Shown piece by piece: positions 4,932 to 30,403 of a stretch of 64,000 nucleotides of DNA (positions are counted from its first letter, which is position 1; each line of letters begins with the position of its first letter). Position numbers and translations under genes: made by a program. Source of the DNA: Paramacrobiotus metropolitanus (lineage: Eukaryota; Tardigrada; Eutardigrada; Parachela; Macrobiotidae); the NCBI RefSeq assembly GCF_019649055.1, contig NW_026570321.1, positions 372,001 through 436,000 of the forward strand, written 5' to 3'. The notes beneath the pieces were generated by a model. That model was not told where the DNA came from, did not search any database, and saw only the letters and a list, made by a program, of their open reading frames with translations.

Positions 4932-4965
4932 GATACTCGTTTCAGTTTCGAAGAAAGTTCCTGTA

Positions 4966-11300: not shown

Positions 11301-13008
11301 TCTAACTGACGATTGGCGGAAATTATCGCATAGGATAAAAGACTTACCGAAGCGAGAGTGTCAGGTAGCCACTATGGAATCAAGGAAGGTTGTTAGTTCG
11401 GAAACAGAGAAGGTTAGTGGTGTTCCCGAAATTCAGAACAGTACGCAGCAAGTCGATATTAGTATCGAAGGCATGTTCGAGAGTGTACCCGAATCAGAAC
11501 TAAATATAGTAGTTTTAGGAAAGCAAAAGGTCGTGGAAACTGTGCCGATCCCGGCAGTACAGGCAGTTAAGGAAGTTGTTTCAGTACCGGTAATTCAAAG
11601 TCAGAAAGCAGTAGAAATTAATACGGCAACTATGAAACGGTTAGCTGATTTTAGTAAATTAGGGTTAGTACCTCAATATCCGATTGAAATTCAGCCGAGA
11701 AATAGGGGAGTTATACGTGCTCGTATTAATAAATTCGGAAGTGAATTAGCAGAATTAATTAAGGGCGGATTATTGGAGCAGAATTTCGAGTATGAAGGTA
11801 AAAATTGCGGTCTATTATTGTTTTGTGACGGTATTGTTAAGTTTGATGAAAATGGTTATTGCGGTATAATTGTTGTGAATAATTCGGACGAATCAGTAGA
11901 TTTATCTGAAAATTTTTATTTGGGAAATGTTATTCCGGTTGAAGAAATTTATTCAGAAGGCGAAAACTATAATGAAGATGATTTTCACGATGTTGTTTGT
12001 AAAAAGTTACAGGCATGTGAGTGTAACGCAGTTAATATTTTTAATGAAAGAAATGGTGCTAATAGTATTTGCATTAAGACGTCAAATGCTTTTTGTAATA
12101 ATGGGAAGTCAGTTTGTATTGTTAGAGATAGTAAGGGAATACATAAAGTAGCGGATGATATTAGGAAATTAACTAATGAGGATTTTTATTGTTATTTGCC
12201 GAAGCAAGCAGTTGCAGTTAATGCCAGTCCTGAAATTATTTTTGATGGAGTAGTTAGTAGCGGCAGTCAAGTACAGCATGTTGATGCATGTACCGTTGAG
12301 AAATCTACGGTCGCACATAAGCGGGTTGAACCGGAAGTTAGTCCTGTAGCAGCACAACAGAAAGTAGTGGTAGAGTCTGTAGTACCAGTAAATGTAACAG
12401 GTTATGTGGAAGTACCGGTAGAGTTGCGTGGTAAATACGTAACACCGCAAGAGGAATCTAAGAAAGCGGAAGCTCAGTGTATAGAAGTTGTTAAAAATGA
12501 CGAATCCAAAGTGAAAAGTAAGCGGTCAGGAAAATCTAATAGTTTGCCTAAATGGACTAGACCGAAGACGAATGACGGTGATGAATTTTACTTTCCGTCT
12601 AATGCGGAATGGGACAGTAAAGCTTTTTGGTTGGAACAACAACAGAGGTGTGTAGATATTCAGTCATGGCGTAATTTTTATAAGAATCCGAAGAATGTAG
12701 ATTCTGAGGCAGTACGTGCGGAAATTAATTCGCTGTTAGTGGAAAACAATGAACTTGTTCGTCATAAAACGCCAGGTAGTGAGCGGCATAATTCGCATAT
12801 TTTTATTCCTTTTCAATGGCGCGAGAAGCTTATGTTAGCTACGAATAAACGGGTTAATTATGAGAAAGAATTCGGTCCAGATATGACAATATTCAAGTGT
12901 CTGTTTGAAGTTAAAAAATATTATTGGCCTAATATGAGAGAAGAAATTGAAAAGTTTGAAAGTAAACTCCCTGGGCATATTTTTAAGCAAAAATGGGGTA
13001 CGAGTTGA
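5356..13008 (+). CDS. Giant Gag-protease polyprotein with duplicated linker and integrase HHCC domains
   Basis: The first ATG in this frame is 5356 (2550 aa); the frame is already open from 5281, so an upstream spliced start is possible. Domains by residue from this ATG: 184-432 long coiled coil; about 622-699 Gag-like segment (LQPYEGKRKSGSIEHWLTQV); about 700-910 N/Q/G/F-rich, RNA-binding-like; 923-935 zinc-knuckle-like CX2CX3HX4C, one residue shorter than a standard knuckle; about 1005-1115 retropepsin with DTGSS (Asp 1019) and ILGMDFF near 1093; about 1450-1585 integrase N-terminal region with HX4H (1541, 1546) and CX2C (1579, 1582). Two copies of the beta-rich post-protease linker of Ty3/gypsy proteins follow (about 1808-1904 and 2096-2201, both with GVIRARINK), then a second HHCC-like region (about 2415-2549) that has lost the metal ligands. 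No RT, RNase H or DDE core is present. It should make virus-like particles and cleave itself. Confidence 0.85.
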   Translation: MTLSSMQLISSQSVGTVNPGKQVTPSVVNPDQVVDPRRSVMSQLVNPHSVGQSVSVQNAEVVGNAVEKLNSAVVGNFVTPSNMARERSAAAQVSDERVFTMSNDQNNNTVGSNFLGNITMREGTPFSENSDDENNTAFNCEKLLLDEDIPFDENVNNLLHPLQSDLRHFIFENDFDPLNQEFAQEVSEVDAKLKASKSEQEALAVTRDSLGTMIRCTKNYVALCLRQLQNSDEINRLNEILSKDDKLKNKLHGDISALRQQLTAVQASNAEHEKNVRALSSKCQVNEKRIRDLEEEDSQSSKLILENQELSAQLRSANEHLQKVKAEASKSLGSSNLQALAVFKENEKKLLLEIEQLKVNCKLECNAKIVAEKDLKSALSRERKLNATLEEKEKLIHSVGVRIHGKDSEILDLMQRMEKLRVEAEELKGNQFSHEREWNFEPEVRVGTGNLAFNQPPAYSNIAQMSGQSQGFVPMSSNANVSNHGSESSQFHAGNLGGSSSNQVCGGENSLRVPSVSHNDSGQLNEPRSDQPRSAASRVRHQSQDRRHTQAVNVGHVPLINVEIPVNNGIDDDGNVDMEDVNAAPAGGLAAQQNANPDWLGVIKIMAEAMKNANSSKPSNVMKLQPYEGKRKSGSIEHWLTQVDQCRLSNGWSDNDTCRQVVGALKGNAVLWFQGLLRDKPNRDWENFYKKEILINYLARGNSFRGQYSGRGNYARQYGNFGNSNGGNWSGQPVQMVPPVYQNPVVLQQPVSSSVQQPVYAPVQMSNPVQMSNPVQMSDQQSFVQIAQQPGSMAMAPVNSGQPVQNFQPLQNNQNMMNSQNFQNQGNFRQMAPMNNFRGQNNFRPRFQNGNNFNHGGFNGNNGNFRPRFNGNNNFGNSGSNFGNNGGNFSNDIRNDQQQNNGQFNESQIQRDKWRLSNGREICYKCHDLHAASACQRPLAYPRLIEPTIEMLRRYGAQVNVIEFEYIWQKKPAQCNTTEVIDMSKYPASELVIHKPTLDAQAWYCTIDVNYKQVKVMIDTGSSISIIPFRLAKKLDLHIFQCPSHVKSVLVNTAHNGQHAVEPLSTLITIHEFGTAFEHTCLVSTNCDRDHIILGMDFFVTKPFILDFSSMTWRMIRQNSLAKLHENALRKTCDMDEIVREHNFVELAPVHTYYGKSIPALMQANMLGFAPYAEFLPYKTAHNVYIGAPVDICQMEMDYAVRKWPRVSDSICYADVDNSESQLSNNRQAGGGKQVCGGVSQSTAQQREVTNDTAVNRSVRDAELADVRKRYDKLLGEPVSVSNQNFRGQNNGRIFEEEVFSITNSGGQQVCGGVSQQVCGGNSFPADSSIKQVCGGESMRENVRGNVENVRTHAVPPAQTLQNNSQNKSIVQRRTFPDSNMVKRNQHLMEKGINQPAVSGDKAVNNGKSLTIAGKKLNVVPVEQNNGKRVPVKSAQYKVDSDWKRWMIPRLDPETREMKPSLADFNKVTFWRAQQRAQGDAKCWYHLHLNPQKADTNFIKEEINWFTIYDGVLCHKNEARGAKPRIFVPYHWRVKLILAVHAAVKHEKILKDTTTYRLLVEKFYWPNMLVEIDHVESNCKFCYPEHRDTRPPRHPDPASNEYLQSDLSKDEVATWVDPKYTNKFAVLQGETGDFVNGKFVPAEGSYDVDLGKAPVSAEDQRAMARAISRVDFDGPIQVNRPGVIRDPLPSSLLDPIKRNRVDAAYKKSDKPTKPKKNGKKVTFSGIAPADDDEWSVPPVQSNVKQNVRQSNVEKRNFRNGSVPRNESAFRNEPIFELNKEVPAVSSETARLVNEAATKQNKPAVDFCTMEVFPQFAVDIKPRSKGVIRARINKSESEIAELVRNGLVEQNFEYEGKRFGNLLLFDGVIDVNENGCLRIPVMNLSDKTVQIGSNLFLGELDPIDEIYAVDSDKFNDKFHDAVCTIAKACECWAKKLVNRKVGVDNIDRDTEEMVSKLESKHLVSDSTFGTPAVIVQRSNGSVSLTDDWRKLSHRIKDLPKRECQVATMESRKVVSSETEKVSGVPEIQNSTQQVDISIEGMFESVPESELNIVVLGKQKVVETVPIPAVQAVKEVVSVPVIQSQKAVEINTATMKRLADFSKLGLVPQYPIEIQPRNRGVIRARINKFGSELAELIKGGLLEQNFEYEGKNCGLLLFCDGIVKFDENGYCGIIVVNNSDESVDLSENFYLGNVIPVEEIYSEGENYNEDDFHDVVCKKLQACECNAVNIFNERNGANSICIKTSNAFCNNGKSVCIVRDSKGIHKVADDIRKLTNEDFYCYLPKQAVAVNASPEIIFDGVVSSGSQVQHVDACTVEKSTVAHKRVEPEVSPVAAQQKVVVESVVPVNVTGYVEVPVELRGKYVTPQEESKKAEAQCIEVVKNDESKVKSKRSGKSNSLPKWTRPKTNDGDEFYFPSNAEWDSKAFWLEQQQRCVDIQSWRNFYKNPKNVDSEAVRAEINSLLVENNELVRHKTPGSERHNSHIFIPFQWREKLMLATNKRVNYEKEFGPDMTIFKCLFEVKKYYWPNMREEIEKFESKLPGHIFKQKWGTS
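6862..6876 (+). repeat. Internal copy of the plus-strand primer motif (QVCGG copy 1)
   Basis: CAAGTTTGCGGGGGT, translated Q-V-C-G-G. Eleven bases (GTTTGCGGGGG) are identical to those directly before the 3' LTR at 30404-30414. Four further copies lie at 9055-9363. Confidence 0.7.
9055..9363 (+). repeat. Cluster of four internal plus-strand primer motifs (QVCGG copies 2-5)
   Basis: CAAGTTTGCGGGGGT occurs at 9055-9069, 9280-9294, 9304-9318 and 9349-9363. Each is in the same frame (Q-V-C-G-G) and identical at the nucleotide level, although synonymous changes would be free. The surrounding protein is low-complexity linker between protease and integrase-like region. Identity with the sequence abutting the 3' LTR suggests a nucleic-acid rather than a protein function. 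Confidence 0.7.
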
Positions 13009-15210
13009 GGAAACTGTACATTGCAGTATAAGTGTTGTTAATCTCAGTAGACAGGAAATAACGTAGTGAAGCGGCGTGTACGTAGGAGCTGCAATTCGCC
13101 TGTTATAAGCGCCTATAGTTGTATAATCAGTAGGCAGTGCTTTAAAATGGAGAAATTCGATGTAGTGTATAGCAGTGTGAAAATTTTTATTATGGGAAAG
13201 CGTGGTTAACAGTAGTGCAATGGCTTAAGAGCACTTCCACAATGTTGTCAGCATTATGCTTAATTAACGGTTAATAGAGCTGTATGAAGTCAGAGCAATG
13301 ATGAATTTAAAAATAATTTTTGTCGAATATGTCGTATATTTTTGTATCTGACATACGGGTAATATTTTAATCAGAAATTAAGAAGTCTAAGATGTATAAT
13401 GTATTGTTGATTCGCGGTATATGGAAATCAGAATTCAGTGTTGTGAGAAATTGTAGCGTAAAGGCTAACGAAGTACTGCATGTCGTTCAGAGTGCTCATT
13501 ATAGGCAACATAAGAACGGTAGTGGTCAGCAGCAGGCTGGCTAAGATAATCTTCTTTTACTGAAATTTCGTAGTATATTGGTCCAGTGTGGACGGTGATA
13601 GATGCAAAGTACGGACAAAGAATATCCTGGTTGTTTGCGTATGAATTTGCAAATTTAAACAAATTTTTAGAATCACGGCATAGTTTTTATGAAACCGTAG
13701 CAGCATAATTCGGTTGATTTCAAATAATAGGAGTAAATACGGTGAAAAAAAAAAAAATAAATACAGTGAAATGGTTATAAGCATTTCAAATTCATTCAAG
13801 TAATGCTCTAACAGCTCAAGTAAACTCGAATGGCAGATTAAGTCGGCGCTTCGGCGACTTAAAATTATAATTTTGCGAGAAAACGTAGTGAAATGAGTGT
13901 TTGGCAGATTTCCGTTGAACATAGCGTTGGCCTCTCAAGAAAAGCAGCGATAAATGAAAATTTAGGATTTATCCTTTCCTTTTGTGAAATATCGAAATGA
14001 GTAGTAATGTAGGATAGTTTTTCCATAAATAGCGGACATGCTATTTTGCAGTATGATTCTGATTTTGAGTGCAGGTGTGGTTAGCCGTAGTGTCATGGCT
14101 AAAACGCAGGAAATTCCATATATTGTCGTTTGAATCAGCCATTTGGTACAAATATGGATCTAACCAGTACAAGGCGGTTAAAGAAATTTAAGTTTTTATG
14201 CACAAAATAGTTTTTGCACAAAAGATGTCGGTAAATTTTTGAATTAGTGAATAAAAAGGATTTGAATATTGCAACATGATTCCGAGTAAAGTTAAAATCA
14301 GTAGCGAATCGTAGTACAGGGGTTGAAACCCAGATCGATATCCGTTTAAAGAACTAGATCAGTTAGTATAAGTAGCGGATTTAGCCAGCGCTAAGGTGGC
14401 TTGGAAATTAAGTTTTTGTGGAATTTTGTAGTATTGCGGTTTAATGGAAGGTGTGGCACTAAGTCTTTAAAAGTACACGTCAAAGTGCGCACGTTCAGAT
14501 TAAAAGTGAAAATGTCAGAATTTAACTTTTTGATTTGGAGAATATGTTTTTACATAAGGAGATTTTGTTTTGGAGCGGAAGGCATCAAAAGAAGTGCGAA
14601 GGGATAGTTTTGGATGCGGTTATGAAAATTGTATATCGCGGCATGTGTAACTCATTGGTAGTAAATATGAAATCTTGTAGAATACTGGCGTTAAGGTTCA
14701 GTATCTGCTGGTCTCGAAACGGTACGCATTCTTCACTTTGAAATTCGAGCAAACGATTATTGAAATTTATTTTTATCGCGAGTTTGTAGAATTGCGGCAG
14801 AGCACGGAGTGGCCGTCTCAAGCCAATGCAGTATGTGAAAATTGGTATTAGCAAATGTGGGAAAGTGTAGTGTAATGACAGCTGCAGTTCTTCTATGCTA
14901 TTGTTGTCAATAAGCAGCTAGTAAAATAAAGGGAAAAGTTCATATTTATTTTTCGAGATAATAATAAGAGAAGATTAAGTTTTTCGTAAAAAATGCAGAT
15001 AATGTAAGAAAATTGAAATATTTATGGAGTATGTGTATTTTTGACGAGAAACGGGTTGCGAGTCACGCAAAAGCCGTTTGATGACGTAATGCTCAGCACG
15101 TGCCAGATGAGCGGTCAGCAGTAGTGTGCTTTGTGGGTCGCGGAGTTTTGTGTTCAAACAGTGTAGTTTTGCGCGGTGTAGAACTTGTTCACTAATTTTG
15201 ATGGTGAATT
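13009..15210 (+). other. Non-coding tract 1 of the giant element
   Basis: No credible ORF. The + strand is poor in C and rich in G and T, with frequent GCGGTA, GCAGTA and GTAGTG words. Several isolated A-box-like strings occur, e.g. CAGTAGTGCAATGGCTTAAG at 13210, CCGTAGTGTCATGGCTAA near 14096, CGTAGTACAGGGGTTGAA with a GATCGATATCC behind it (14310-14342) and TGTAGTGTAATGACAGC at 14866. They look like decayed relatives of the tRNA-like units further downstream. Confidence 0.45.
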
Positions 15211-15513
15211 ATGAATCCCTCTCGTATCGGAAGTCTGGATATTCTAGCTCAGCACTTTGACAAGTTTAGTTCTGAGAAGTCTGTCGAAATGCCAGCGTTG
15301 ATTAAACCTGATGCGGAAGGTTTGATTCGCAGCGGTACGAAGACGATCTTCGTCCGTCAGTACAATCGTGAAAATGACGAGAAAAGTGTGTTTGTGATTA
15401 CGGTCGAGGAAGGACCGGAGGCGGAGAATTCGGAGTTTTGGTTGAAAGTTCACAGTCTGGTGGACGAGCAGTTGCAGAAAACTGCGCAGCAAGAGAATGC
15501 GGGTCAGAATTGA
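15211..15513 (+). CDS. Accessory ORF A, 100 aa, unknown function
   Basis: ATG-started ORF of 100 aa (MNPSRIGSLDILAQHFDKF start) in the sense direction of the element. It is acidic, without Cys, signal peptide or membrane segment, and has a predicted mix of strands (TKTIFVRQYN, EKSVFVITVEEGPE) and a C-terminal amphipathic helix (EFWLKVHSLVDEQLQKTAQQ). I recognise no family. The base composition switches from the C-poor surroundings to ordinary coding composition exactly over the ORF, which argues that it is real. Confidence 0.6.
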   Translation: MNPSRIGSLDILAQHFDKFSSEKSVEMPALIKPDAEGLIRSGTKTIFVRQYNRENDEKSVFVITVEEGPEAENSEFWLKVHSLVDEQLQKTAQQENAGQN

Positions 15514-16472
15514 CCAGTGAATCGTATGGAGGAAGTGTGTGGAATTGTCTTTTCGGTATTCTGTTATTTGAGCTTTCGGTGAAAGCTTGTCTGATTTTGA
15601 AATCTTTATTTTTGTGAGTTTTATGGGTTTTAAGCTTTAATTTTGCGATACAACGCGATTGGGAGAACCCAATGGTGTAAGTGCGGCGAAAACGGCGGAT
15701 TGAATGCGATTTTGCGGTATTTGTTTGCAGAAATTACCTATTGTGTTGATCGGTTGTGAATTTATGGATTTTATTAGAGAATTGGTCCTTCTTCAGTTTT
15801 GAACACTTCCGAATTGAAAGTGTTCGGTATTTGTCAATAAACGTGACGTCGACGGTGTATTTCCGGTTGTTGTACAGTATAACGTACTGAATGTATCCCA
15901 GCTGGGATATTAGCGGCAAAACTTATAGAAGAGTTTAGATGTATGGAAATGCATTGTAAAAAACGCAAACCTGGGTGTTAGATAAACGTGTATACTTCCG
16001 AATCGTAAATTCTAAGTATTTGGGAAGAAAAAGGACTTCCGAGCACTATTGTGTAGTATGACACAACAAAATACAGAATCCTGTATTGTAGCGTAACGAA
16101 GAGTACTGTAGGGTGTAAATGTACGGTGAAGAACCTAGCAGTTGGGGATACATTTTGGAAATTCCAGACGGGTGTTTTCATCTGTCGGTTGTAAATTTAA
16201 GGTAGAGAACTTAATTCTCTATCATTCTAAACAAAAAGGAAGAAAAGATTGGTAGTGTTTAAGTGAGAAAGAGCAGTTTTGCAGAAATCAGTGGTGTAAC
16301 GAGCTTAGGCCCAATAAAACAGCTGTATAACGATTGCGCAATCGCAAATTTGTGGTTTTTGGACTTCGAAATTTTTGAATTTGAACACTTTTTATTCCAT
16401 AAGATTCTCGTCGTGTTTTGAGCAGTTTGCTCGTCTGATTTTTGAAATTTTGCACCCCATTGTGCAAGCGTA
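15514..16472 (+). other. Non-coding tract 2 of the giant element
   Basis: About 960 bp between accessory ORFs A and B. No ORF with coding character; T-runs and GCGGTAT words are common. A short imperfect inverted repeat (GAACACTT..AAGTGTTC) lies at 15806-15828. A sense AATAAA near 15836 and others could serve as poly(A) signals for ORF A, but this is not provable here. Confidence 0.35.
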
Positions 16473-17048
16473 TTGACTTTTGCGATGGCAGCAGCTTTTC
16501 GTGCGGATAAGAGTGGACAGGAGTTGATTGTTCCTGTTACTCGTCGTATCAGACGTATTGAGCCAGTTGAGAGCTCTATTGCGGAGAATGTTGTTGTTTT
16601 GCGAGCGGATGGCGAACCTGCTGATTCACAGCGACCTGTGGCATGTCGCCCATGTGATTTGAAACGACGACCTGATATTAGTGGCTTGGAGAGAGCGTTG
16701 GAAAAGCTCGACCTCAATGAGGAGAAGAAGGCAGCGAAGAAGCGCGAAGCAGTCACTGGAATTTCAGTGAAGTTTGGTGTCAAACGTTCAGGATTTACGG
16801 TATTTCGTCGAACCGAAGTCGCGATCGAGAATACGACCATCCATTTGAAAGGAGAAACAGCCCTGGTGAACGAGCTGGTGCGGAAACTAAACGAGAACAG
16901 ATTGAAGATTCGTCGCGTTTGGCAGAATGGTCGGATTGTGCGGATTTTGGGTCCCACTTACACGGTTCCGTGGCGATGGTCGGCAAAGGTGAGGAATCGT
17001 CCGATGCAGCACTTTCGGTGGTATACGTTTCCTAAGGATCGTCAGTGA
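16473..17048 (+). CDS. Accessory ORF B, 191 aa, basic protein of unknown function
   Basis: The annotated ATG (16473) follows a TTTTGCG stretch; an ATG at 16482 in the same frame (MAAAFRADKSGQEL) is an alternative start. The protein is Arg/Lys-rich. A helical charged segment (LERALEKLDLNEEKKAAKKR) sits in the middle, followed by a beta-rich part (ISVKFGVKRSGFTVFRRTEV) and a Trp/Arg-rich tail (TVPWRWSAKVRNRPMQHFRW). The charge suggests nucleic-acid binding; no named domain was recognised. It is not an RT or integrase fragment that I can see. A sense AATAAA follows at 17211. Confidence 0.6.
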   Translation: MTFAMAAAFRADKSGQELIVPVTRRIRRIEPVESSIAENVVVLRADGEPADSQRPVACRPCDLKRRPDISGLERALEKLDLNEEKKAAKKREAVTGISVKFGVKRSGFTVFRRTEVAIENTTIHLKGETALVNELVRKLNENRLKIRRVWQNGRIVRILGPTYTVPWRWSAKVRNRPMQHFRWYTFPKDRQ

Positions 17049-17349
17049 AACAGTTTCGTAACTGTGACGGATTATGGTGGTTGTTTTTAGAAGAAACCGT
17101 TTGAGAAATGAGCATTTTGGTAGTGATTTGTGCGGTAATGATTCCGGTATGATTATCTTTACTTTGTTGAATTTGTACAGTGATCTCTTTTGTTGTGGAG
17201 TATTGTTCTGAATAAACAGTCTGCGGAAATTGTACAGCGTGTGAATAAATTTGTGGTCTAATTATCGATGCGGTAGTTGGTAGAGCCAGTGTATAAACAC
17301 AGTTTCCGTAAATTATCAGTGTAAAACAGTAAAATAAATCAAATTTATA

Positions 17350-17457
17350 GGAAATTCGTAGTGGCCGAGTGGTTAGCGAATGCCTATGGGTGAATCACCT
17401 GTTAAAATTAACAATTGAACGTTACGAGTTCGAGGCCAGTGTAGGATAATATTTTTG
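17350..17457 (+). ncRNA. tRNA-like unit 1 (Ser/Leu-type A-box)
   Basis: TTCGTAGTGGCCGAGTGGTT is the D-arm/A-box pattern of class II (Ser/Leu) tRNAs. About 70 bp on, ACGAGTTCGAGG resembles a B-box, and a T-run follows at 17452. Acceptor and T-stem pairing are poor, so a functional tRNA is unlikely. Confidence 0.45.
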
Positions 17458-17546
17458 GGACTTATTTTTGCCGGACGTGATAAATAAGGTAGCAGAGTCG
17501 AGTAAAATTTATTAGCGTATAGGAAAACAAGAAATTGTGGAATCTG

Positions 17547-17633
17547 GAAGATAGCGTGGTGGTTACGATCTTCAGTGAAGTCGAGTGTTTAAAACCACAG
17601 TCACGGGTATCAATCCCAAACGATTAATTTTTT
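17547..17633 (+). ncRNA. tRNA-like unit 2
   Basis: TAGCGTGGTGGTTACGA matches the A-box. GGGTATCAATCCC at 17605-17617 forms a 3-bp stem with a 7-nt T-loop-like loop. TTTTTT at 17627 is a Pol III terminator. GAAGAT and ATCTTC around the A-box could also pair. Confidence 0.5.
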
Positions 17634-17651
17634 GTAGTTTACTTAGTGAAT

Positions 17652-17744
17652 TATCGATAGCTTAGTGCAGAGATCCATGGTGACGCCGTAATGGATTAAT
17701 CTCTGTGTAACTGGGATCGAGTCCTTGCTGAAATTTTATTTTTA
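17652..17744 (+). ncRNA. tRNA-like unit 3
   Basis: A-box-like TAGCTTAGTGCAG. A long central hairpin (CAGAGAT/ATCTCTG plus CCAT/ATGG) sits where the anticodon or variable arm should be. B-box-like GGGATCGAGTCC at 17713-17724 and a T-run near 17734-17742 complete the unit. Confidence 0.5.
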
Positions 17745-17981
17745 GTATTTATTCGGAAGTAGCAGTATGTTGCAGCACGCTAAAAGAAATTACAAATTAC
17801 ATCAGAAATCGTAGTGTAGGGTTTCAGCAGACAATTCTACAAGGACCCGAAGTGAAAACAACAAAAAACGATAACAGATGTTAAGAGCGGTAAAATTATA
17901 GGAAAATTTCACCTTTTTGTAATTTAGCATAGGGATGTATTTTCACTTATAGCAGTATGAATTTCTGTAATTTTTAGTAAA

Positions 17982-18112
17982 GCCTCATTAGCGTAGTGGT
18001 AGAAGCCACGGACAACGCTACGATCACATACACTTGAGTAGTTGATATCCTGTCAGCATACGGGTCTGATCCGGTTTGAAAATCAGGATAGCGCTTGTAG
18101 GCAACTTTTTAG
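17982..18112 (+). ncRNA. tRNA-like unit 4
   Basis: CATTAGCGTAGTGGTAGAAG is close to a canonical A-box (TTAGCxxAGTGGTA). GGTCTGATCC near 18062 resembles a B-box, enclosed in a 7-bp stem (TATCCTG/CAGGATA). A T-run is at 18106. The unit is longer than a tRNA, as if it carried an insertion. Confidence 0.5.
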
Positions 18113-18123
18113 CCTTATTTTTA

Positions 18124-18240
18124 GCGAAGTCTGTAGTGTCTTATGGGTAGTAACCTTATAGTCGCAGAACATGGAAGCCTTCAAAAACAGCATTTGCTCA
18201 TGTGTTCTGGAGTTCGATACTCAGCACAGTCATAATTTTT
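18124..18240 (+). ncRNA. tRNA-like unit 5
   Basis: TCTGTAGTGTCTTATGGGTA (A-box-like). A central 9-bp stem CAGAACATG/CATGTGTTCTG with one bulge. GGAGTTCGATACTC (B-box with GAGT/ACTC stem) at 18209-18222, then TTTTT at 18236. Confidence 0.5.
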
Positions 18241-18335
18241 GGTAATTTTTATGTGAATTTTAGTAGGATTTATATTTGTAATTATAGGGCAGTATGTATT
18301 GATAATTATCAGCGGTATTTGGAATTGTACTTTTA

Positions 18336-18428
18336 GTAACTGTGTAGTTGGCGCAGTGAGTGCGGCCTACGTGATATTTTCGCATTGCACACCAAGAGAA
18401 ACCGGTATCAACTCTTCAAAATAATTTT
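18336..18428 (+). ncRNA. tRNA-like unit 6
   Basis: TGTGTAGTTGGCGCAGTGAG resembles the A-box of initiator or elongator tRNA-Met. CCGGTATCAACTC near 18403 resembles a B-box and sits in an AAGAG/CTCTT stem. A T-run follows at 18424. Confidence 0.45.
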
Positions 18429-18762
18429 TGGCGTGTATTATTTTTCGGTGGATGTATTCTGTAATTATGAATTCGCGGAAAAGCCAGAATCTTATTATTT
18501 TAGTTGGAATTTACAGGAAATCAGTTTTTATTTTGGCGGTATATGTAAACTTCGATTTTAGCGGTATGTAAAAGTTGTAGAGCAGTGGCTCTATTGAACG
18601 AGCGCATCAGGAGTTATGACGAGAGATCGTATAGCAGAGCGGAAATTGTAGTAAAAATTCCTTTTTCTCTTATGGAGTAATTTGTGAGTATTTTGTAGTA
18701 TTTTTGCGGACAGCAGTTTGTGTCAGAAAATCATAGAACATCAAAATATACTAGTACTGATG

Positions 18763-18781
18763 TTGGCGCCCCCCGGTGTCA
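18763..18781 (+). other. Internal PBS-like site 1
   Basis: TTGGCGCCCCCCGGTGTCA shares TGGCGCCC and the following CGGTG pattern with the true PBS at 3731. It stands alone, without an LTR end before it. Confidence 0.5.
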
Positions 18782-19224
18782 TCTCTCCTCATCAGTTACT
18801 AGCTAATCCAATTATATTTTCGAATGAGTATGGCAGAGTTTTGCTTTATTGACGGCGGAATATGTAAAATTCTAGCATTTATTATAGGCAGAAGTAGTAG
18901 TGCAGTGGCTATATGATAAATCTGTACAGCAGCGTTATAATGTATGTTCAAGTGTAAAAACCATGCAGTATGATTTGGAAATTCCTTTTATTGGAAAATC
19001 AGTAGGAAATTATTTTTGGGATGAAAATGCGGATTTCAGAATTTATCAAGTTATGTGTAATTGAGTAGCGGTAGTTATGACGTTTATGTGCTTCAGTATG
19101 GTCAGCAGTATGAGTCAGTATTGCGTGTTTTGAGTGGTAGAATTCTTCAGTGTTTCAGTCCGAGATTTTCAGTGGCAGATATTTGATTAAAATTATTCTT
19201 ATTTGTTGAGAATTTTGTATTATC

Positions 19225-19611
19225 ATGTCGAAGCGTGGTGATATTATCAAGCAGCACAGCGGTGCTCGAGCTCTTTTGTTTCCTGAGAATGCATTTGATG
19301 ATCGCGTGAAAATGGCAGACAGTGTGAGAGAGCGTGTGATGGAAGATCTCTCTTCCAAGGTTCTCGACTGGCATGTGAAAGACGACTTGAAGAACGAACC
19401 TAATGCGGCGAAAGTGGTGGAGAAAGCGAATGTTGAGGCCTCAGTGCAGTCTCGTGAAGTTCCGAAAGAAGCAGAGAAGACGATGACCAGTGGGTCTCAG
19501 CAGTCAGCTATGAGTAAGGAAGAAGCGGACAAGGAGTTCTTTCGCAAGTATTATCGTCCCTATAACCTTCCTCAGCCGAGAATTGATCCTCATTTTCCTC
19601 ATGGTTGGTAA
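19225..19611 (+). CDS. Accessory ORF C, 128 aa, unknown function
   Basis: ATG ORF starting MSKRGDIIKQHSGARALLFP and ending DPHFPHGW. It has a charged helical middle (DSVRERVMEDLSSKVLDWHV) and a Ser/Gln/Glu-rich linker. No Cys or His metal motif, membrane segment or known domain is recognised. The composition is coding-like against a C-poor background, and the ATG follows TATTATC as in other ORFs of the element. Function unknown. Confidence 0.6.
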   Translation: MSKRGDIIKQHSGARALLFPENAFDDRVKMADSVRERVMEDLSSKVLDWHVKDDLKNEPNAAKVVEKANVEASVQSREVPKEAEKTMTSGSQQSAMSKEEADKEFFRKYYRPYNLPQPRIDPHFPHGW

Positions 19612-19935
19612 TGGACATGTTTTCGATTCTATGGAATTGTTCTCACTTAGTACCTTGATTTATCGGTGATTATAGCTTTTATTCAGAGATTTTAGAGAGA
19701 TTCCTTTATGTTTGTGGAGCAGAATTTCTCAGCATTTTAGATACTTTATTGGTGGATTTAGCGGTGTCTTTGTTCAGTATTTAGTTGCGGATTTATTCAG
19801 AGGACTTATTGAAGCTGTAGTTCGGTGTCGAGTATTATTGTTTGTTCGCGGATTAAAGCGGTGATTTTGCAGTGATTTTGTTTGCTTGTCAGTTTATAGC
19901 AGTGTGTCACCATAATAACAACGGCAGTGGTGGTG

Positions 19936-19950
19936 TTGGCGCCCCCCGGT
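19936..19950 (+). other. Internal PBS-like site 2
   Basis: TTGGCGCCCCCCGGT, identical over 15 bases to the site at 18763. Upstream stands CACCATAATAACAACG, which also precedes the site at 28595 in altered form, so the two are copies of a longer degenerate module. Confidence 0.55.
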
Positions 19951-20043
19951 ACCAGCAAACCTCACCATTCACTCGCCGTCTGTAACACCAAAAATCCAGT
20001 AAACACAGGAGAAAAAGTAGAATTATAGAATATGAGTAGTTAT

Positions 20044-20063
20044 TATTGCACGACAATGGCGCG
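20044..20063 (+). other. Internal LTR-end plus PBS-like site 3
   Basis: TATTGCACGACAATGGCGCG reproduces the junction between the LTR end (TTGCACGACA) and the PBS (TGGCGC) found at 3721-3736, with one inserted A. It is followed by unrelated sequence. Confidence 0.6.
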
Positions 20064-20263
20064 TAACCATTTGTTCCTTGTAAGTTTGGATGTAGGAAAT
20101 GTGTATTGCGGCATGTAAATTCAGTAATATTGTAGTGTTGAAATTTGTAGTGTAGTGGCGTGAGATACTATCTCCATGCCTCTGTTTAGCCTTACTTTCT
20201 AAAACATTAGTAGTCGAAACTTTAGCTTTTGCAGTGAATCGTAGTATTTTTATTTCGGTGAAA

Positions 20264-20361
20264 TTCGTAGTGGCCGAGTGGCTGAGAGATCTCGCAGTAG
20301 TTATTCAAGACGAATAGTAACAGCGATGATCGGAGTTCAATTCCTGACTTGTAATTTTTTT
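20264..20361 (+). ncRNA. tRNA-like unit 7 (Ser/Leu-type)
   Basis: TTCGTAGTGGCCGAGTGGCT (class II A-box), GGAGTTCAATTCC (B-box) at 20332-20344, and an eight-T run at 20354-20361. Spacing fits a class II tRNA with long variable arm. The T-stem pairs only partly. Confidence 0.55.
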
Positions 20362-20401
20362 TTGCTTCGTAGCGTGTTTATTGTTAGTAGAATTATCGAA
20401 T

Positions 20402-20502
20402 TTCGTAGTAGTCGAGTGGTTATGAAGTGGCGCTACAGATCTGGACATTGTCATCGGTAGCAGTATAGCCATAGTTCGAAACTCGAGCAAGTCGTAATTT
20501 TT
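20402..20502 (+). ncRNA. tRNA-like unit 8 (Ser/Leu-type)
   Basis: TCGTAGTAGTCGAGTGGTTA (A-box) and TAGTTCGAAACTC (B-box, AGT/ACT stem) at 20472-20484. A T-run follows near 20498. Confidence 0.5.
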
Positions 20503-20541
20503 GCATTTCGGAGTGTGTATTTTTGACATAATTATGAATAG

Positions 20542-20635
20542 TGTGTAGTGTCTGAGTTGTTATGCGGTAAGGTGCACAGCACAAATAACTCTAAGGCATT
20601 CAGTTCGAGTTCGCAAGTAGAGTAAATTTTCGCGG
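20542..20635 (+). ncRNA. tRNA-like unit 9
   Basis: GTGTAGTGTCTGAGTTGTTA (A-box-like) and CAGTTCGAGTTCG (B-box-like) at 20601-20613, with a weak TTTT at about 20630. Confidence 0.4.
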
Positions 20636-20742
20636 AATTATGTTTTTGGAAATTCAAGAAATATTGCAGTAAAATTTAGAATGGTATTAATAACAGTAAT
20701 TTTTCAGTATTAGCGGTGTTGTAGTGTTGTAATTTTTAGTAA

Positions 20743-20850
20743 TTTGCGTAGTGGCGCAGGGTACATGCTTTACAGATCATAGTAGTTTCTGTCAAATAGT
20801 AGGACAAGCAGGTCTCGAGTTCAACCCGTGCTAGCAGTAGAATTTTCTTT
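20743..20850 (+). ncRNA. tRNA-like unit 10
   Basis: TTGCGTAGTGGCGCAGG (A-box-like) and TCGAGTTCAACCC (B-box-like) ending at 20827, inside a possible AGCAGGT/ACCCGTGCT stem. A T-run near 20844-20850. Confidence 0.5.
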
Positions 20851-21045
20851 TTCCATTCAGTTTTGAGCAAACGAATGACTTCTTATTTTTAAGTAAATCG
20901 TTGGAATAGTATTATGAATCATGAAATAAGCGGAGATTAGATTGGTAAAAATTGAGAACTGTTGTGGTAATACTTACCGGAGTTGTTATAGTCAGTTATC
21001 CAGCAACAGTTTAGGGCGTAGTAATTTACGGCATTGTTGTGAAAA

Positions 21046-21155
21046 TTCGTAGTAGTGCAGCGGTATCAGCGGTCGAGCCATGTAGCGCTAAATCTGATTT
21101 TAAACGGCTTTACTTCCGTAGCACTTGTTCGATTCCCCTTAAGGGCGAACTTTTT
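21046..21155 (+). ncRNA. tRNA-like unit 11
   Basis: TTCGTAGTAGTGCAGCGGTA (A-box), TGTTCGATTCC (B-box) at 21126-21136, TTTTT at 21151. Between B-box and terminator lies the palindrome CCCTTAAGGG. Confidence 0.5.
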
Positions 21156-21628
21156 GCAAAACTTTGGTTCTATTTTTGTGTTTCCGGTATTCAGTAATTA
21201 TTCTTATTAGTATTTACGGTGAAATCACTTGAGAGATTATGAATCTTATATTTATGGTAATTAAGCGGATAACCTTTTTATACTTCGTATTACTCAGTGA
21301 ATTATTAGCGGCTTTAGCAGTAGCAATAGTGTCAGCAGTTGTACTTCGCATTTTTATTTTGATTTCGTAAAACACAGAAATTTTACTTCGTATTGAACAT
21401 TGCGGCAGTATCAGAGTACGCCAGAAAAATAAAATCAAAACAGAACTTTTCACCAGTGTTCATCGTAGTTGAACAGTATTCACTCGGTAATTTGTGCAAA
21501 TATACAGAATAAAATCGCAAAAGGCGATCTGAATAAAATTGAACGCAAATATACAAGACGTAAGAGAAAAGATAAAAGAAATAAAATCAATACAGCAATA
21601 CAGCAGACACGGTAAAAGACTTCGTAAT

Positions 21629-22018
21629 TCAGTTCTTCTTGAAACGCTTGGCAGCAGGAGTTTTCAGATCCAGAGATCCATCAGGTTTACGTGAGAAAAC
21701 CATAGCAACCGATTTAGGCATGTCTCCACGTGTTTCAGTTCCTGGTGCGTTAGGACGCTCAGCAGTCACAGTAGTTGGATCGCGCAGCAGAGATAGCGTG
21801 TCCTCAGCAGTCTCAGTTTTCGGCAGTAGCGGAATAGGATTTGCGGCCAAGAGTCCACACAGAGGCATCGGCCCATGCATCGCAGCAGCATCGATTTTCA
21901 TGGCAGTTTGACGCAGAATACTTTGTGCATCAGTTCCGAGATGGGGAATTCGTACTTCGATGGTGGTTCCTTCGCGAGCACAGCGATCACAGCCACGACT
22001 ATGCTCTTGAACCAGCAT
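21629..22018 (-). CDS. Antisense accessory ORF E, 129 aa
   Basis: Minus-strand ATG ORF starting MLVQEHSRGCDRCAREG and ending in the basic tail KTPAAKRFKKN. A CX2C pair lies near the N-terminus (residues 10 and 13); the middle is Pro/Thr-rich. The basic C-terminus could be a nuclear localisation signal. No family recognised. It runs against the direction of the element, 248 bp downstream of antisense ORF F, so both could sit on one antisense transcript. The + strand here is not C-poor, unlike the non-coding neighbours. Confidence 0.5.
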   Translation of the reverse strand: MLVQEHSRGCDRCAREGTTIEVRIPHLGTDAQSILRQTAMKIDAAAMHGPMPLCGLLAANPIPLLPKTETAEDTLSLLRDPTTVTAERPNAPGTETRGDMPKSVAMVFSRKPDGSLDLKTPAAKRFKKN

Positions 22019-22266
22019 TCCTGTAATGATAGTAAATCAGTAGGGAAATTTATACAGAAATTGTAGTCGTAAAATTCAGTATTAATAGTCAGAAATTGCA
22101 GATAATTAGCGGAATCATATAGGGATTAATTTTGTAAATATTTAAGCGGAAATGAAAAGTATGCAGATATGTTGTATTAATTAGTAGGGAAGTACTCGCA
22201 GTAAATTATAGGAAATTATGCAGTAAATATTTAAACGGAAATATAGAGATATAGTAAGCGGTGAAA

Positions 22267-22923
22267 TTAGCTGTGTTTGATCTTACCGACTCCTCGAGCT
22301 AATTCGTCCGACAGTCCTTGAGTTCGTCGATCTGTCATTTCGCGGTATACGATCGCACTCACGAACTTGTCTCCTCCGATAGACGTTAGGCATCCAATTT
22401 CCAGTAAGAAGTTTCTTTCCTTGTGGTAGTACTTGATCCAGTTGTGTAAGCAGACAGTGTATGTTGTTCGGATGACGCGTTGAATCTCGAATTTCGTCAT
22501 TGCGTATCCTCCTTCTTCCAGCACAGTCAGAACAGCGTTTCGCAGTTGCAGTCGCGTGGTAATTTCTTCGTTGCGATCCCGCTGAATTCGTGACGATACT
22601 TCCAGGAAACAACGTCCTTCTTTCACTCTTTTGCGTAGGAACCCAGAAGTTACAGCAGTCTCGATGTACTTGTCGATGTTCAGCATGGTGAATTCATGAT
22701 GTGCGTTGTTCAATGTAGCCTTTAGATAATCAACATCCACGTAAAATCCAGAATCGGTGTGGTGTCCTATGATAGTTCGGACAGCGAACTGAAAAGCTTC
22801 GTACAGTCGCATTTTTCGCGTGTAAAAACTCGTAGTGTCACGATCGAAAATTTGTTCGATACCAACATGCAGTCCAGCAGGAGCAGTAGATAAGGAAGTA
22901 ATAGCGTTTAGCATAGCGGACAT
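22267..22923 (-). CDS. Antisense accessory ORF F, 218 aa
   Basis: Minus-strand ATG ORF of 218 aa (MSAMLNAITSLSTAPAG start). The sequence alternates amphipathic helices and short strands (KMRLYEAFQFAVRTIIGHH; RLQLRNAVLTVLEEGGYAMT; FEIQRVIRTTYTV) and looks like two repeated helical or winged-helix-like units, but I cannot assign a named domain. Four Cys without a metal pattern; no signal or membrane segment. It is the longest accessory ORF opposite to the element's own transcription, a position comparable to antisense genes of some retroviruses or to a captured host gene. Confidence 0.6.
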   Translation of the reverse strand: MSAMLNAITSLSTAPAGLHVGIEQIFDRDTTSFYTRKMRLYEAFQFAVRTIIGHHTDSGFYVDVDYLKATLNNAHHEFTMLNIDKYIETAVTSGFLRKRVKEGRCFLEVSSRIQRDRNEEITTRLQLRNAVLTVLEEGGYAMTKFEIQRVIRTTYTVCLHNWIKYYHKERNFLLEIGCLTSIGGDKFVSAIVYREMTDRRTQGLSDELARGVGKIKHS

Positions 22924-23543
22924 TTCAGTAACTATAGGTCACGCTTTAAGGAAATGAAACGTCTCAGTAATTCTGGTAGGAAAACGTATGAGGAAACAGA
23001 ACTGAAAATTTTTCGGAAGCGGTGATGACTTTTATAGGCTTATAGCAGGAAATTGTGCAGTTGTATGTGTGTATGTGTGTATCGCCCTTGTATGGCAGTG
23101 TGTCAGTGCAACTCGTAGTACGTATGTTCTTCCCATGTATTGTACGCCTTAGTACTTTAGCGCGTATTTCAGTGCAGATGTACAGTTTTCTTCTCAGAAT
23201 TATGGAATTGTTAGTTTTTTGCGGTCAGATTTTCAGATTATCAAATTTTAAGTAGTAGGATATCTTTTTCCTTATTGCACGACGTGCGCCCAAACGTGGT
23301 TCAAATATGCGGAAATAACCTTCAGTTTGTGGAAAAATCAACTTTACAGTAGATTTTCGGTGTAAATTGTAGCGTATGTTTAATTTCGTGGTATGGCAGT
23401 TTTATGTACAGTGTGCTGAGAGTGATGACAGTGCAGATTTGTTGTGGTTTTTAATTCAAAGAGATACCGACAGTGTTGTGATTTCGTCAGAGCAGTGAAC
23501 TCTTTTGTTGTGGTTTTTCGATTTTTGATATTTTTCGGTAATC
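22924..23543 (+). other. Non-coding tract 5 with LTR-end/PBS copy
   Basis: About 620 bp between the divergent starts of antisense ORF F and sense ORF D, so it may be a bidirectional promoter region. It contains the best internal copy of the LTR end plus PBS (23264-23305). Confidence 0.45.
23264..23305 (+). other. Internal copy of the LTR end plus PBS (site 4)
   Basis: About 42 bp match the LTR/PBS junction at 3709-3750: TTTTTCCTTATTGCACGAC, then GTGCGCCCAAACGTGG, then TTCAAA. A small rearrangement falls at the CA/TGG junction itself. It lies 240 bp before accessory ORF D. Confidence 0.75.
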
Positions 23544-24539
23544 ATGCCTCCTAAAGCGATTAAGCGTAAGCGGGAAGAGAGTTCTTCTTCTTCTTCTTCC
23601 AGTAATAGCAGTTCGAGTAGTAGTGTTAACTTTGCTGATGAATCGGAAGTGTCTTTCGTTTCGATCTCCAGTATTCCTTCGAATGAGTCAGATGTGACGG
23701 AAACTCAGAGATTTTTGGCAGATGTTGATCCTTACGCAGTTGATTATATCGTGAGAGAACCTGATCCTGAAATTGGTAATCGCAGTGACGTAGCAGATGT
23801 TGAGAGTGTGCACAGCGGCAACTCCAGTGCAGGTCTCGAGAAACCAGCGGAAATGTTCGATTGTTTTCAAGAAGACGGGAAACGTTATAAGGTGATCTCT
23901 ACGACTGATACTGAGAGTTTTACGACCTTGATGTCTACTCCCAGCGAAACGTATGATGACGAAGATGAATGTGCGTCGTGTTCAACTGGTCCTTTACCTA
24001 ACACAGCGGAGAGATTAGCTAATTTGGCGGATGTGAATGTTGAAGTTGAGTCAGATCGCAGTTCGGAGTTTGAAGAGCAACCCATGGTGTATCACGAGAA
24101 AACTCCTCCGAAACGTGATGACAAAGGTAACATAGTCCTTCATCCTGGAACTCGTTTGTTTTTGAATGGCAAGTTGTACCATGCCGGAAAACTTATCAGT
24201 GTGAAGAAGTTTAACCATTTTGTGCGTAATATGTCCAAAGAACGGAACCGATATCTTAAAACTCAGTATTTATTTGCACATCCTGATTCGATTGAGAGTT
24301 TGAACCTGGTTGCGCAGTTGCATCGGAGAAATGACAGCGTCGTCGACTTTCCCACGCGGATGATGTTCAATGGCGGGTTATTGTATTCGCAGCATGTTGG
24401 TAAACCTTCCCCAGCAGCAGTGCGGAAGAGGCAGCGGGAAATGAGTCCTGAAATCGTTGGAATTCCTTCAGTTGTGTTGTCGCGTGAATCTTCTCCTGAA
24501 ATCCCTGTTCAGTCTCGTAAGAAGCAGCAAACTTTTTGA
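23544..24539 (+). CDS. Accessory ORF D, 331 aa, acidic Ser-rich protein
   Basis: ATG ORF beginning MPPKAIKRKREE (a likely nuclear localisation signal), followed by a poly-Ser tract and a long acidic, probably disordered region with repeated Ser/Glu/Asp. The C-terminal third is more ordered (RLFLNGKLYHAGKLISVKKF; NHFVRNMSKERNRYLKTQYL). The tail again is basic and Ser/Pro-rich (SRESSPEIPVQSRKKQQTF). It resembles acidic nuclear phosphoproteins in composition only; I recognise no domain. It could be a chromatin or RNA-associated accessory factor of the element. Confidence 0.6.
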   Translation: MPPKAIKRKREESSSSSSSSNSSSSSSVNFADESEVSFVSISSIPSNESDVTETQRFLADVDPYAVDYIVREPDPEIGNRSDVADVESVHSGNSSAGLEKPAEMFDCFQEDGKRYKVISTTDTESFTTLMSTPSETYDDEDECASCSTGPLPNTAERLANLADVNVEVESDRSSEFEEQPMVYHEKTPPKRDDKGNIVLHPGTRLFLNGKLYHAGKLISVKKFNHFVRNMSKERNRYLKTQYLFAHPDSIESLNLVAQLHRRNDSVVDFPTRMMFNGGLLYSQHVGKPSPAAVRKRQREMSPEIVGIPSVVLSRESSPEIPVQSRKKQQTF

Positions 24540-24959
24540 TCTTTTGTTGTCGGTTCGTATTTGTTGTGTTTTTACTTGGAATGGTGTGTAGTATTACGGT
24601 AACTACGCGGAAATTGTCTTTTGTTATTTGCAGTCGTCGCACAGGAACGGTAGTATTTTTGTGTCAGTGCTTTTCGCGGTATTTTCTAGTTTTTACCCTG
24701 GTCGTACGGATCGGTGTACTATGACGTATTTCACTTTTTATTTGTTGATCAGTGTAATCTGTGTGATGCAAGTACGAATTGCGGATGTGCGGTTGTTCAG
24801 TCATTAAAATTCGGGAGCGTGTTAGCGCTAATGCGGTTGGAGTTTTGCAGTCAGATTTCAGTGTGTGGTTTGAGAACTTTGAATTCACTTTTTATTTTTA
24901 TTCGGAGATTTTATTGCGACCTTTTTCATTTATTTCCTGGTCACTTTTGCTTGGTAGTT

Positions 24960-25883
24960 ATGGATCTTAACGCAGCTTTTAATTATATGGTAGATGCTTT
25001 GTGTAGTAATGGTCATCAGTATGGTAATCGCGGAAATTATCGTGGTCGTGGCAATAATCGGCGTATGAATTACTATCGTCCTTATTCTCGTGGCGGTTAT
25101 CGTGGAAGAGGTTATAACGGATATCAGAATAATGCTCAGCAGTGGCAGCGAAATCCTCAGTATCCTTTGGCAAATAATGGCGGAAACGGTATTAACGGTG
25201 TTCAGTTGGTTGTACCGGAGAATGTACCTATTGTTGGAGCGGTTATGCCTGTTGTGAATAATCCTGGTTGGCAAGCTCAGAACACGGAAGTTGTCCAGCA
25301 GAACATGGCGGCTTTGCAGTTGAATCAGCCTGTGGCGAACGAGGAAATGGACATTAACGAAGAGAACATCGTTCCTCAGCAGCAAGGTCAGAATGTCGGT
25401 AATGCTAACGGTGTTGTTGGTGTGAACGATCAGAATCCTGTGGCGGTTGGCAATGTGGTGAATCCAGAAGTTGTGGCTCAAGTTGCTAATAATGTCCAGA
25501 ATGCGATGAATGGCGGAAATGTTGCGGCAGAACCTTCTCAGAATGTTGTGGTGAATGAACCTTCAGTTGTGGTTCCTGGTATTGCGTATGTTCCTATGAA
25601 TGGTGACGGAAGACCTCAATATCCTTCAATCAATCCTTCGGATATCTTTCAGCGTAACGCAGATGAAGAGCGGCGAAAACAGTCAGCAGAGCGAGCACGT
25701 ATGGCGGCGGATGCTAAACGTAATGATTTGTCCGGTTTGCAGTCTCGTTCCTCATATCCTGATGTGCAGCGCAGTCGTCTTCGTGTTCAGTCTTCAGATA
25801 ACCTTGTCGCTCCTGATACTAGAGCTCATCGTCGTAATAATTCTGTTGATAATTCTTCGCAGTCAGCCTGTAAACCTCAGTGA
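24960..25883 (+). CDS. Accessory ORF G, 307 aa, RG/N/Q-rich RNA-binding-like protein
   Basis: I choose ATG 24960 (MDLNAAFNYMVDALCSNGHQ); the frame is open upstream to 24714, but that part is hydrophobic and unlike the rest. Residues about 20-70 are rich in RG, RY and NY (YRGRGNNRRMNYYRPYSRGG), a typical RGG/RNA-binding composition. The middle is N/Q/V-rich, and the C-terminal part is charged and helical with an ERRKQSAERARMAADAKR stretch. Composition strongly resembles the N/Q/G-rich segment of the main polyprotein, so it may be a second nucleocapsid-like protein. This is inference from composition. Confidence 0.6.
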   Translation: MDLNAAFNYMVDALCSNGHQYGNRGNYRGRGNNRRMNYYRPYSRGGYRGRGYNGYQNNAQQWQRNPQYPLANNGGNGINGVQLVVPENVPIVGAVMPVVNNPGWQAQNTEVVQQNMAALQLNQPVANEEMDINEENIVPQQQGQNVGNANGVVGVNDQNPVAVGNVVNPEVVAQVANNVQNAMNGGNVAAEPSQNVVVNEPSVVVPGIAYVPMNGDGRPQYPSINPSDIFQRNADEERRKQSAERARMAADAKRNDLSGLQSRSSYPDVQRSRLRVQSSDNLVAPDTRAHRRNNSVDNSSQSACKPQ

Positions 25884-26183
25884 TGATGTCACGGTTTGTA
25901 ACTCTCTGTGTTGGCATCTTTGGTCATGATTTTGCGGTATATTGTGAATTTCTTTTCGCGTTTATATGTTCTCAATTTTTGCTGTATATACGTTCGCGAA
26001 AGACAAGTTTAAGCTCTCAGTGCAGTCGTGTGTTCAATAAACGTTCGGTGTGTGGATAAAGTATGGAAGTGTGAAGATGGAAGTAACGGAAGTAATTGGA
26101 GCAGTAATTTTGGAGTTATAGGACATTTTCCATCGTATTTTAGTCGTGCGGTATGATATGGTAAGATTTTAGGCAATGTAGAA

Positions 26184-29990: not shown

Positions 29991-30403
29991 ATACATCCAC
30001 TTTCAATACGGAATAACATCTAAATGATCAGTCTTAAAGCACTTAATGCTATAAACAACATCTTTTTTCAACATCTTTTTAAATACGATAACACCTTGGA
30101 TCTCATGGACGTTCCTGCTCTCCGCCTTTCCACTTCCTTGGACTTCCGGATTGCCAGTTACGCTCCAGGATCCGATGACTTATAACACTCAAACTCACTA
30201 ACAACTTACCGGACCGAGCGATGTTACTTACTTTCGATGGCACCGGATAGTCGGGATGGAATTTGGCGATAGTGCTAGATGTTGCACGCACTATGCGGAT
30301 GGAGCAGATGTTACTTTTTCCTATGTCCCTATGTTCCTTCCTCTTCGTTCCACTTCGTTCCGCAGAGCTTCACTTTTGTTCCACTACGATCCAGAGAAAT
30401 CTC

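Follow-up and report, generated by a model that had tools for sequence, protein, structure and literature searches.

Short Pol III-type promoter modules may line a giant LTR retroelement of the tardigrade Paramacrobiotus metropolitanus

A 64,000-nucleotide stretch of the genome of the tardigrade Paramacrobiotus metropolitanus (NCBI RefSeq assembly GCF_019649055.1, contig NW_026570321.1, positions 372,001 to 436,000 of the forward strand), here called the window, contains a giant long terminal repeat (LTR) retroelement with many short units that resemble RNA polymerase III (Pol III) genes. Class I units combine an A box, a B box and a T-run, and class II units have an A-box-like core without a B box (Table 1; all positions are window coordinates). 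We think it probable that these units are short Pol III-type promoter/terminator modules, serving recruitment, that are strung along the element; TFIIIC and Pol III would then bind the units and transcribe them. This reading builds on the boxes, their geometry, their strand bias and the conservation of their cores between element copies, all seen directly in the sequences. Box enrichment and constrained A boxes, together with the finding of no tRNA and no general folding excess, argue for such modules rather than for tRNA mimics or processing punctuation, which a first-pass annotation made from the sequence alone had also considered.

The class I units, labelled U1-U6 and U8-U12, were curated by eye between 17.36 and 21.16 kb. 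They confirm the claim of eleven plus-strand units with an A box, most of them also with a B box and a T-run, at 17350..21155, and the boxes are enriched over shuffled sequence. The A-box pattern TRGYNNARNGG occurs in this stretch eight times on the plus strand and never on the minus strand, against a mean of 0.60 and a maximum of 2 in 20 shuffles. It was found four times on the plus and not at all on the minus strand both in 13009-15100 (0.50 in shuffles) and in 26000-30060 (0.30); elsewhere, the counts were 2 plus versus 1.65 in the big open reading frame (ORF) and 3 plus and 2 minus versus 1.80 in the flank at 32-64 kb. The pattern GTTCGANNC is present four times on the plus strand of 17350-21155, with none on the minus strand and none in 20 shuffles; it is absent from both class II arrays and the big ORF and occurs in the flank on 3 plus and 2 minus positions versus 1.0. 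For the looser GGTTCGANTCC, allowing two mismatches, 5 plus and 1 minus matches compare with a shuffle mean of 0.85 and a maximum of 3, and the longer TRGYNNARNNGG shows no enrichment in the same stretch (0 versus 0.60). A combined scan, which joined the A-box pattern to a B-box matrix derived from 24 of 30 host tRNA loci and to TTTT, gave 8, 7 and 5 plus-strand hits at three thresholds and no minus-strand hit in 17300-18650 and 20200-21200. Forty shuffles of these two stretches gave means of 0.42, 0.17 and 0.07 and maxima of 3, 2 and 1. The same scan found 4, 1 and 0 hits in the 26-30 kb array (0.62, 0.30 and 0.12 in shuffles) and 0 in the 13-15 kb array.

The spacing within class I units resembles that of host tRNA genes. 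A and B boxes start 52-75 bp apart, and the T-runs are 4-9 long. The distance from the end of the B box to the T-run is 9-15 nucleotides in 10 of the 11 units and 33 nucleotides in U4; measured alike, it is 10-15 nucleotides in 24/24 host tRNA genes. T4 follows the B box within 25 nucleotides in 10/11 units, where chance gives 0.31. Only class I has the A box, B box and T-run terminator of a tRNA gene, and these units hold all three within about 100 nucleotides, as do the compact Pol III genes of bovine leukaemia virus.

To assess conservation, we aligned 12 copies for the middle of the element and 6 for the region at 26-30 kb, the window included (more matches exist), and compared the value at each feature with the value obtained when the feature was slid along the alignment 3000 times. 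The A boxes of class I are clearly constrained (0.033 versus 0.125 when slid, 0/3000 slides) and the B boxes weakly so (0.070 versus 0.109, 87/3000), while the bodies drift like background (793/3000). One copy, L017, was left out beyond position 19400, where LTR sequence stands instead; with it kept, the means were 0.076 for A boxes, 0.091 for B boxes and 0.142 for bodies, and A and B boxes together gave 0/2000 slides. After exclusion of 12 of 132 unit-copies (absent, more than half gaps, or from L017 beyond 19400), 120 remained, the window's own 11 included. The A box lies within one change in 116 of these (86 identical), or in 105/109 without the window's own units, the B box within two changes in 105/120, and T4 within 50 nucleotides, a loose criterion, in 120/120; all three hold in 101/120. 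The units are kept between element copies and the boxes exceed shuffled sequence, so neither of the two outcomes named beforehand as refuting the first-pass annotation was seen; enrichment, strand bias, terminator geometry and A-box conservation together support the suggestion of internal Pol III promoters within a retroelement. The picture of a full series of good units does not hold fully for two of them: the B box of U4 is unsupported by other copies (4 changes in 9/11), and U10 is missing from 5 of the 11 other copies, with its B box broken in 3 more. In some copies, unchanged flanks enclose a different centre (U1 and U12 in L009-L019; 29016 and 29964 in L055-L058), as if unit centres had been swapped between lineages.

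ARAGORN found 0 tRNAs in the window. Rfam reported nothing at gathering scores in the window, and in 17300-21200 it gave no tRNA match even at E up to 10, so that no unit has a cloverleaf scoring as tRNA. The idea that tRNA-like structures steer the cutting of a giant transcript by RNase P/Z agrees with the sense orientation of every unit; given these searches and the absence, as a group, of any covariation or folding excess in class I units, we regard it as very improbable. Descent from decayed tRNA genes or short interspersed nuclear element (SINE) insertions would account for boxes that vary from unit to unit as if drawn from several tRNAs, with no cloverleaf left. It fits badly because constraint within the units is strongest on the A boxes; moreover, all units share the plus strand, and class II units have only a cassette in common, with sequence information near zero beyond +18. 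We therefore consider decay quite improbable.

Folding was compared with shuffles both in single sequences and in alignments. In single sequences, the 11 class I centres have a mean z of -0.32, with only U8 below -1.5 (-2.55), and the 11 full units a mean of -0.93, with U3 (-1.77) and U4 (-2.31) below -1.5; class II bodies gave +0.19 and controls -0.05, -0.16 and -0.06. Against 25 column shuffles each, alignment folding gave -0.05 and 0.24 for the class I clusters and -0.48 and 0.65 for the class II arrays; in array 1, 4 of 26 plus-strand windows fell below -2 and 3 below -3, and 2/26 were low on the minus strand. RNA structure as a conserved property is therefore unsupported by alignment folding, from which structure could hide where unit centres differ strongly between lineages (e.g., U1 and U12), and single-sequence folding shows no group excess either. 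The strong central hairpins described for units 3, 4 and 5 have some basis in the full units U3 and U4, provided that the numbering agrees, and none in U5 (-0.67), and central hairpins are not a general feature of the units. Full class I units, U3 and U4, lean slightly toward structure, too little for tRNA mimicry or a series of pre-miRNAs.

The same data bear on the view that the units are compact Pol III genes encoding structured RNAs of a pre-miRNA-like or VA/EBER-like kind, whose hairpin product matters, as in bovine leukaemia virus or murine gammaherpesvirus 68 (MHV68). An A box, a B box and a terminator together in one short unit would suit such genes, as would the values for U3, U4 and U8, which singly lean toward a pre-miRNA hairpin, and a 9-bp hairpin in U5. 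The group means in class I and class II set beside the controls, the alignment folding of the class I clusters and bodies that drift like background speak against it, and we judge this view unlikely. The tRNA-miRNA-encoding RNAs (TMERs) of MHV68 are likewise tRNA-like Pol III units that stand in series in a viral genome. They have cloverleaf-like heads and miRNA hairpins. Neither was seen in the units of the tardigrade element.

The series extends beyond 17350..21155, which proved correct for class I only, and continues at 13.0-15.0 and 26.2-30.1 kb with the class II arrays, whose 37 units (11 + 26) were picked by eye and share the sequence [CT]GTAGTNTANYGGC. CGTAGT occurs 16 times on the plus and 0 times on the minus strand at 26-30 kb (1.95 in shuffles), 5 and 0 times at 13-15 kb (0.80), and 9 and 0 times in 17350-21155 (1.55). 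A second motif, GCRGYATG, precedes [CT]GTAG by 36-40 bp in 14 of 16 exact occurrences at 26-30 kb (38-39 in 13), where even spacing predicts 1.5, and in 3/3 at 13-15 kb, where it predicts 0.2. With one mismatch, 30 motifs gave 19 pairs in the former region (2.3 expected) and 13 gave 7 in the latter (0.6 expected); no pair was found on the minus strand. The association is weaker in the class I stretches, where 6 exact motifs gave 1 pair in one and a single exact motif gave 1 in the other; in the flank, 0/4 exact motifs are paired, and 42 motifs with a mismatch gave 1 pair. Across the assembly, TTTTTGNNNNNNTTCGTAGTNTA (core plus T-run) has 19 matches, 17 of them on element-bearing contigs and 2 elsewhere (C3, C156); the reversed control has 0.

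Comparison of the copies shows constraint on the CGTAG core (6/3000 slides in array 1, 0/3000 in array 2), less on the 14-nucleotide class II core (164/3000 and 8/3000), and none on the bodies of either array (1081/3000 and 1228/3000). The class II bodies contain 7 T4 runs where base content predicts 18.9, and T-runs reappear about 80-120 nucleotides beyond the core; in array 2, these are largely the T-runs that stand 13-15 nucleotides before the next core. We rejected the alternative that GCRGYATG is tied to the T-run instead of the core: 6/17 well-spaced exact motifs of the two arrays have no T4 in the next 52 nucleotides, so the spacing does not depend on a T-run. That GCRGYATG might base-pair with the CGTAG core was dismissed by reasoning alone, because a pair would be lost wherever Y is C.

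Two other explanations concern class II in particular. The cassette could be a 40-nucleotide intron (GTATG ... CGTAG), which the GT...AG ends and the T-rich stretch in many cassettes recall; however, GC replaces GT in 6/16 exact motifs at 26-30 kb (5/14 of the well-spaced ones), the spacing is nearly fixed (38-39 in 13/16), and the common sequence extends beyond the supposed acceptor, which makes an intron extremely improbable. Alternatively, the units could be a binding array for an element protein acting on RNA or DNA during packaging, integration or replication, the likeness of class II to Pol III promoters being incidental. The fixed 36-40 bp between GCRGYATG and core, the near confinement of the cores to the element and the degenerate A boxes of class II are in keeping with such an array; it leaves the A-B-T geometry of class I unexplained, as well as T4 runs that are sparse in bodies and reappear at 80-120 nucleotides, and we hold it to be rather unlikely.

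Several observations weigh against Pol III-type modules. The A-box consensus is exact in only 8/37 class II units (4/11 in array 1, 4/26 in array 2) and within one change in 24/37 (9/11 and 15/26; 0.021 at random positions), and no class II unit has an exact B box. The constraint on GCRGYATG is clear only in array 1 (4/3000 slides, versus 512/3000 in array 2), and exact motifs alone gave 129/3000 and 340/3000. Within 100 nucleotides upstream of 24 host tRNA genes (24/30 loci; 6 could not be oriented by the pattern used) there were 0 exact and 1 one-mismatch GCRGYATG, and the 3 host U6 genes scanned (of 4 loci) had none upstream, so that the scan ties the motif to no host factor. In class I, the T-runs show no clear constraint (310/3000 slides), and the scarcity of inner T4 runs (2 versus 1.87 in self-shuffles) is explained by base content. 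In addition, the tests of geometry and conservation used units of both classes that had been picked by eye. Class II is the weakest link: GCRGYATG may stand in for the B box, or the array may bind something else.

Taking the units as Pol III-type modules, class I would have a type 2 promoter layout, with the B box 52-75 bp beyond the A box and a T-run spaced from it as in host tRNA genes. Class II would consist of an A-box-like core with a T-run some 80-120 nucleotides on and, in many units, GCRGYATG 36-40 bp upstream, roughly where TFIIIB would be expected to sit. Because constraint falls on the cores and the bodies drift as background does, selection would act on recruitment or on the act of transcription, not on a defined RNA product. 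By analogy with TFIIIC boundary elements, we favour the idea that TFIIIC and Pol III at the units might hold the chromatin of the provirus in an open state or insulate it against silencing. In reports on the TFIIIC/B-box boundary elements of fission yeast and the B2 SINE boundaries, Pol III boxes likewise act on chromatin and not via a product. These boundaries are not known to form an array inside an LTR element or to have a class II architecture. That some 48 Pol III modules of two architectures, one of them B-box-less, are kept to coat the element DNA with TFIIIC and Pol III, for escape from silencing or to shape transcription, is a possibility that we put forward tentatively.

Known systems resemble the array in part. 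According to the sections on its Pol III genes, bovine leukaemia virus has five compact type 2 genes with hairpin products and a terminator before the B box (PMC4267658). As there, several independent compact units with A box, B box and terminator lie here on the sense strand of a retroelement; unlike there, the units number 11 + 37, the class I terminator follows the B box, hairpins are not general, and a B-box-less class with an upstream motif exists. The TRIMp3 elements Helenus, Ajax and Cassandra are described, in the sections that cover them, as having one small-RNA promoter in each LTR, with a length of 311-1263 bp for Helenus (PMC10886601). They share with our element the combination of LTRs with Pol III boxes, a non-autonomous nature and boxes conserved without a functional RNA. 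In contrast to these short elements without coding capacity, ours spans 28.7 kb, with dozens of units internal between the LTRs, the 2566-amino-acid ORF and small ORFs under selection. As far as these sections go, neither bovine leukaemia virus nor Helenus, Ajax and Cassandra match the unit number, the size or the B-box-less class.

Within the open-licence PMC papers searched, we found no account of a Pol III unit array inside an LTR element or of a coating strategy, and the available text of a paper on tardigrade transposons (PMC11071193) has 0 occurrences of Paramacrobiotus. Whereas retroviruses and LTR elements in the compared literature have one to five Pol III genes, dozens of candidate units occur here in one element. 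If our reading is true, constrained cores and drifting bodies would provide a natural system in which attracting the Pol III machinery is separated from making small RNA, and the tardigrade would offer an example of chromatin or transcription being shaped by mobile elements through Pol III.

Table 1. Features of the retroelement in window coordinates; class I units run from the A box to the end of the T-run.
Feature	Position	Strand	Remark
Whole LTR element	2738..31394	+	28,657 bp; direct repeats 27.66 kb apart; ends read from sequence
Left LTR	2738..3730	+	repeat search; ends from sequence
Right LTR	30415..31394	+	repeat search; ends from sequence
Primer-binding-site-like TGGCGCCCACCG	3731..3742	+	complementary to 3' end plus CCA of host tRNA-Lys(CTT)
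2566-amino-acid ORF	5308..13008	+	Pfam matches (E<=1): aspartyl protease, integrase zinc-binding
Class II array 1	13062..14975	+	11 units, A-box-like core without B box
Small ORF	15211..15513	+	purifying selection, dN/dS 0.12, 11 copies
Small ORF	16485..17048	+	purifying selection, dN/dS 0.17, 11 copies
Class I unit U1	17362..17456	+	
Class I unit U2	17552..17633	+	
Class I unit U3	17658..17737	+	
Class I unit U4	17989..18110	+	B box doubtful
Class I unit U5	18134..18240	+	
Class I unit U6	18348..18429	+	
Small ORF	19225..19611	+	purifying selection, dN/dS 0.13, 10 copies
Class I unit U8	20271..20363	+	
Class I unit U9	20409..20502	+	
Class I unit U10	20549..20630	+	
Class I unit U11	20752..20846	+	
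Class I unit U12	21053..21155	+	
GCRGYATG motifs	26148..29589	+	16 exact, 14 of them 36-40 bp before [CT]GTAG
Class II array 2	26187..30060	+	26 units [CT]GTAGTNTANYGGC

The element itself has the paired LTRs, primer-binding site and gag/protease region of an LTR retroelement. The second LTR is 98% alike over 983/997 query bases, and the match of the primer-binding-site-like sequence to the host tRNA-Lys(CTT) loci (L048/L049) was judged by eye, as was the lack of a visible target-site duplication at the window's copy. No reverse transcriptase was matched in the 2566-amino-acid ORF (Pfam, E<=1), and the window's copy therefore looks non-autonomous. Two stretches of this ORF are integrase-zinc-like, a segment of about 90 amino acids is repeated in it (repeat seen by eye), and its pol pieces look shuffled; residues 1000-1650 have no protein relative at E<=0.001, and translated window 8200-13005 has no PDB match at E<=0.1. 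The ratios of nonsynonymous to synonymous substitution (dN/dS) of 0.12-0.17 in the three small ORFs suggest that the element family is selected. In all copies together, these ORFs have, in the order of Table 1, 1, 0 and 1 in-frame stops and 1, 3 and 2 codons with frame gaps; the first and third have no Pfam match, and the second (searched as the translation of 16473-17045) only weak ones below the cut-off.

Across the 170-Mb host assembly, there are at least 41 LTR matches (40 of 123 candidates scored). Those listed include 14 same-strand pairs with spans of 12.4-28.9 kb, counted from coordinates, and are 93-98% alike (one 108-base piece 80%); the middle parts of elements differ by 8-18%. Similar LTRs and divergent middles hint at LTR exchange between lineages or at recent spread.

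Further primer-binding-site-like sequences lie on the plus strand: TGGCGCCCCCCGG at 18764 and 19937, in hairpin-like surroundings, and TGGCGCCCCCGTGG at 28597. The TGGCGCCCCCCGG copies are largely kept between element copies, that at 18764 being deleted in 2/11 others, and an 85% copy of the junction between LTR end and primer-binding site is found at 23265-23305 on the plus strand. Two more plus-strand ORFs, 23544-24539 (331 amino acids) and 24714-25883 (389 amino acids), have no Pfam match above the cut-off; inspection by eye shows the latter to be rich in RGG/RGY and asparagine. Antisense ORFs occupy 21636-22036 and 22267-22923 on the minus strand, the second matching nothing in Pfam and having no relative at E<=0.001 (searched as 22270-22923). 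Beside the element, a BTB protein is encoded that shares 99% identity with a Paramacrobiotus metropolitanus protein. The non-coding stretch 15514-16480, in which short hairpins are visible by eye, shows more folding than column shuffles on either strand (mean z -1.2 on plus and -2.09 on minus, 12 windows).

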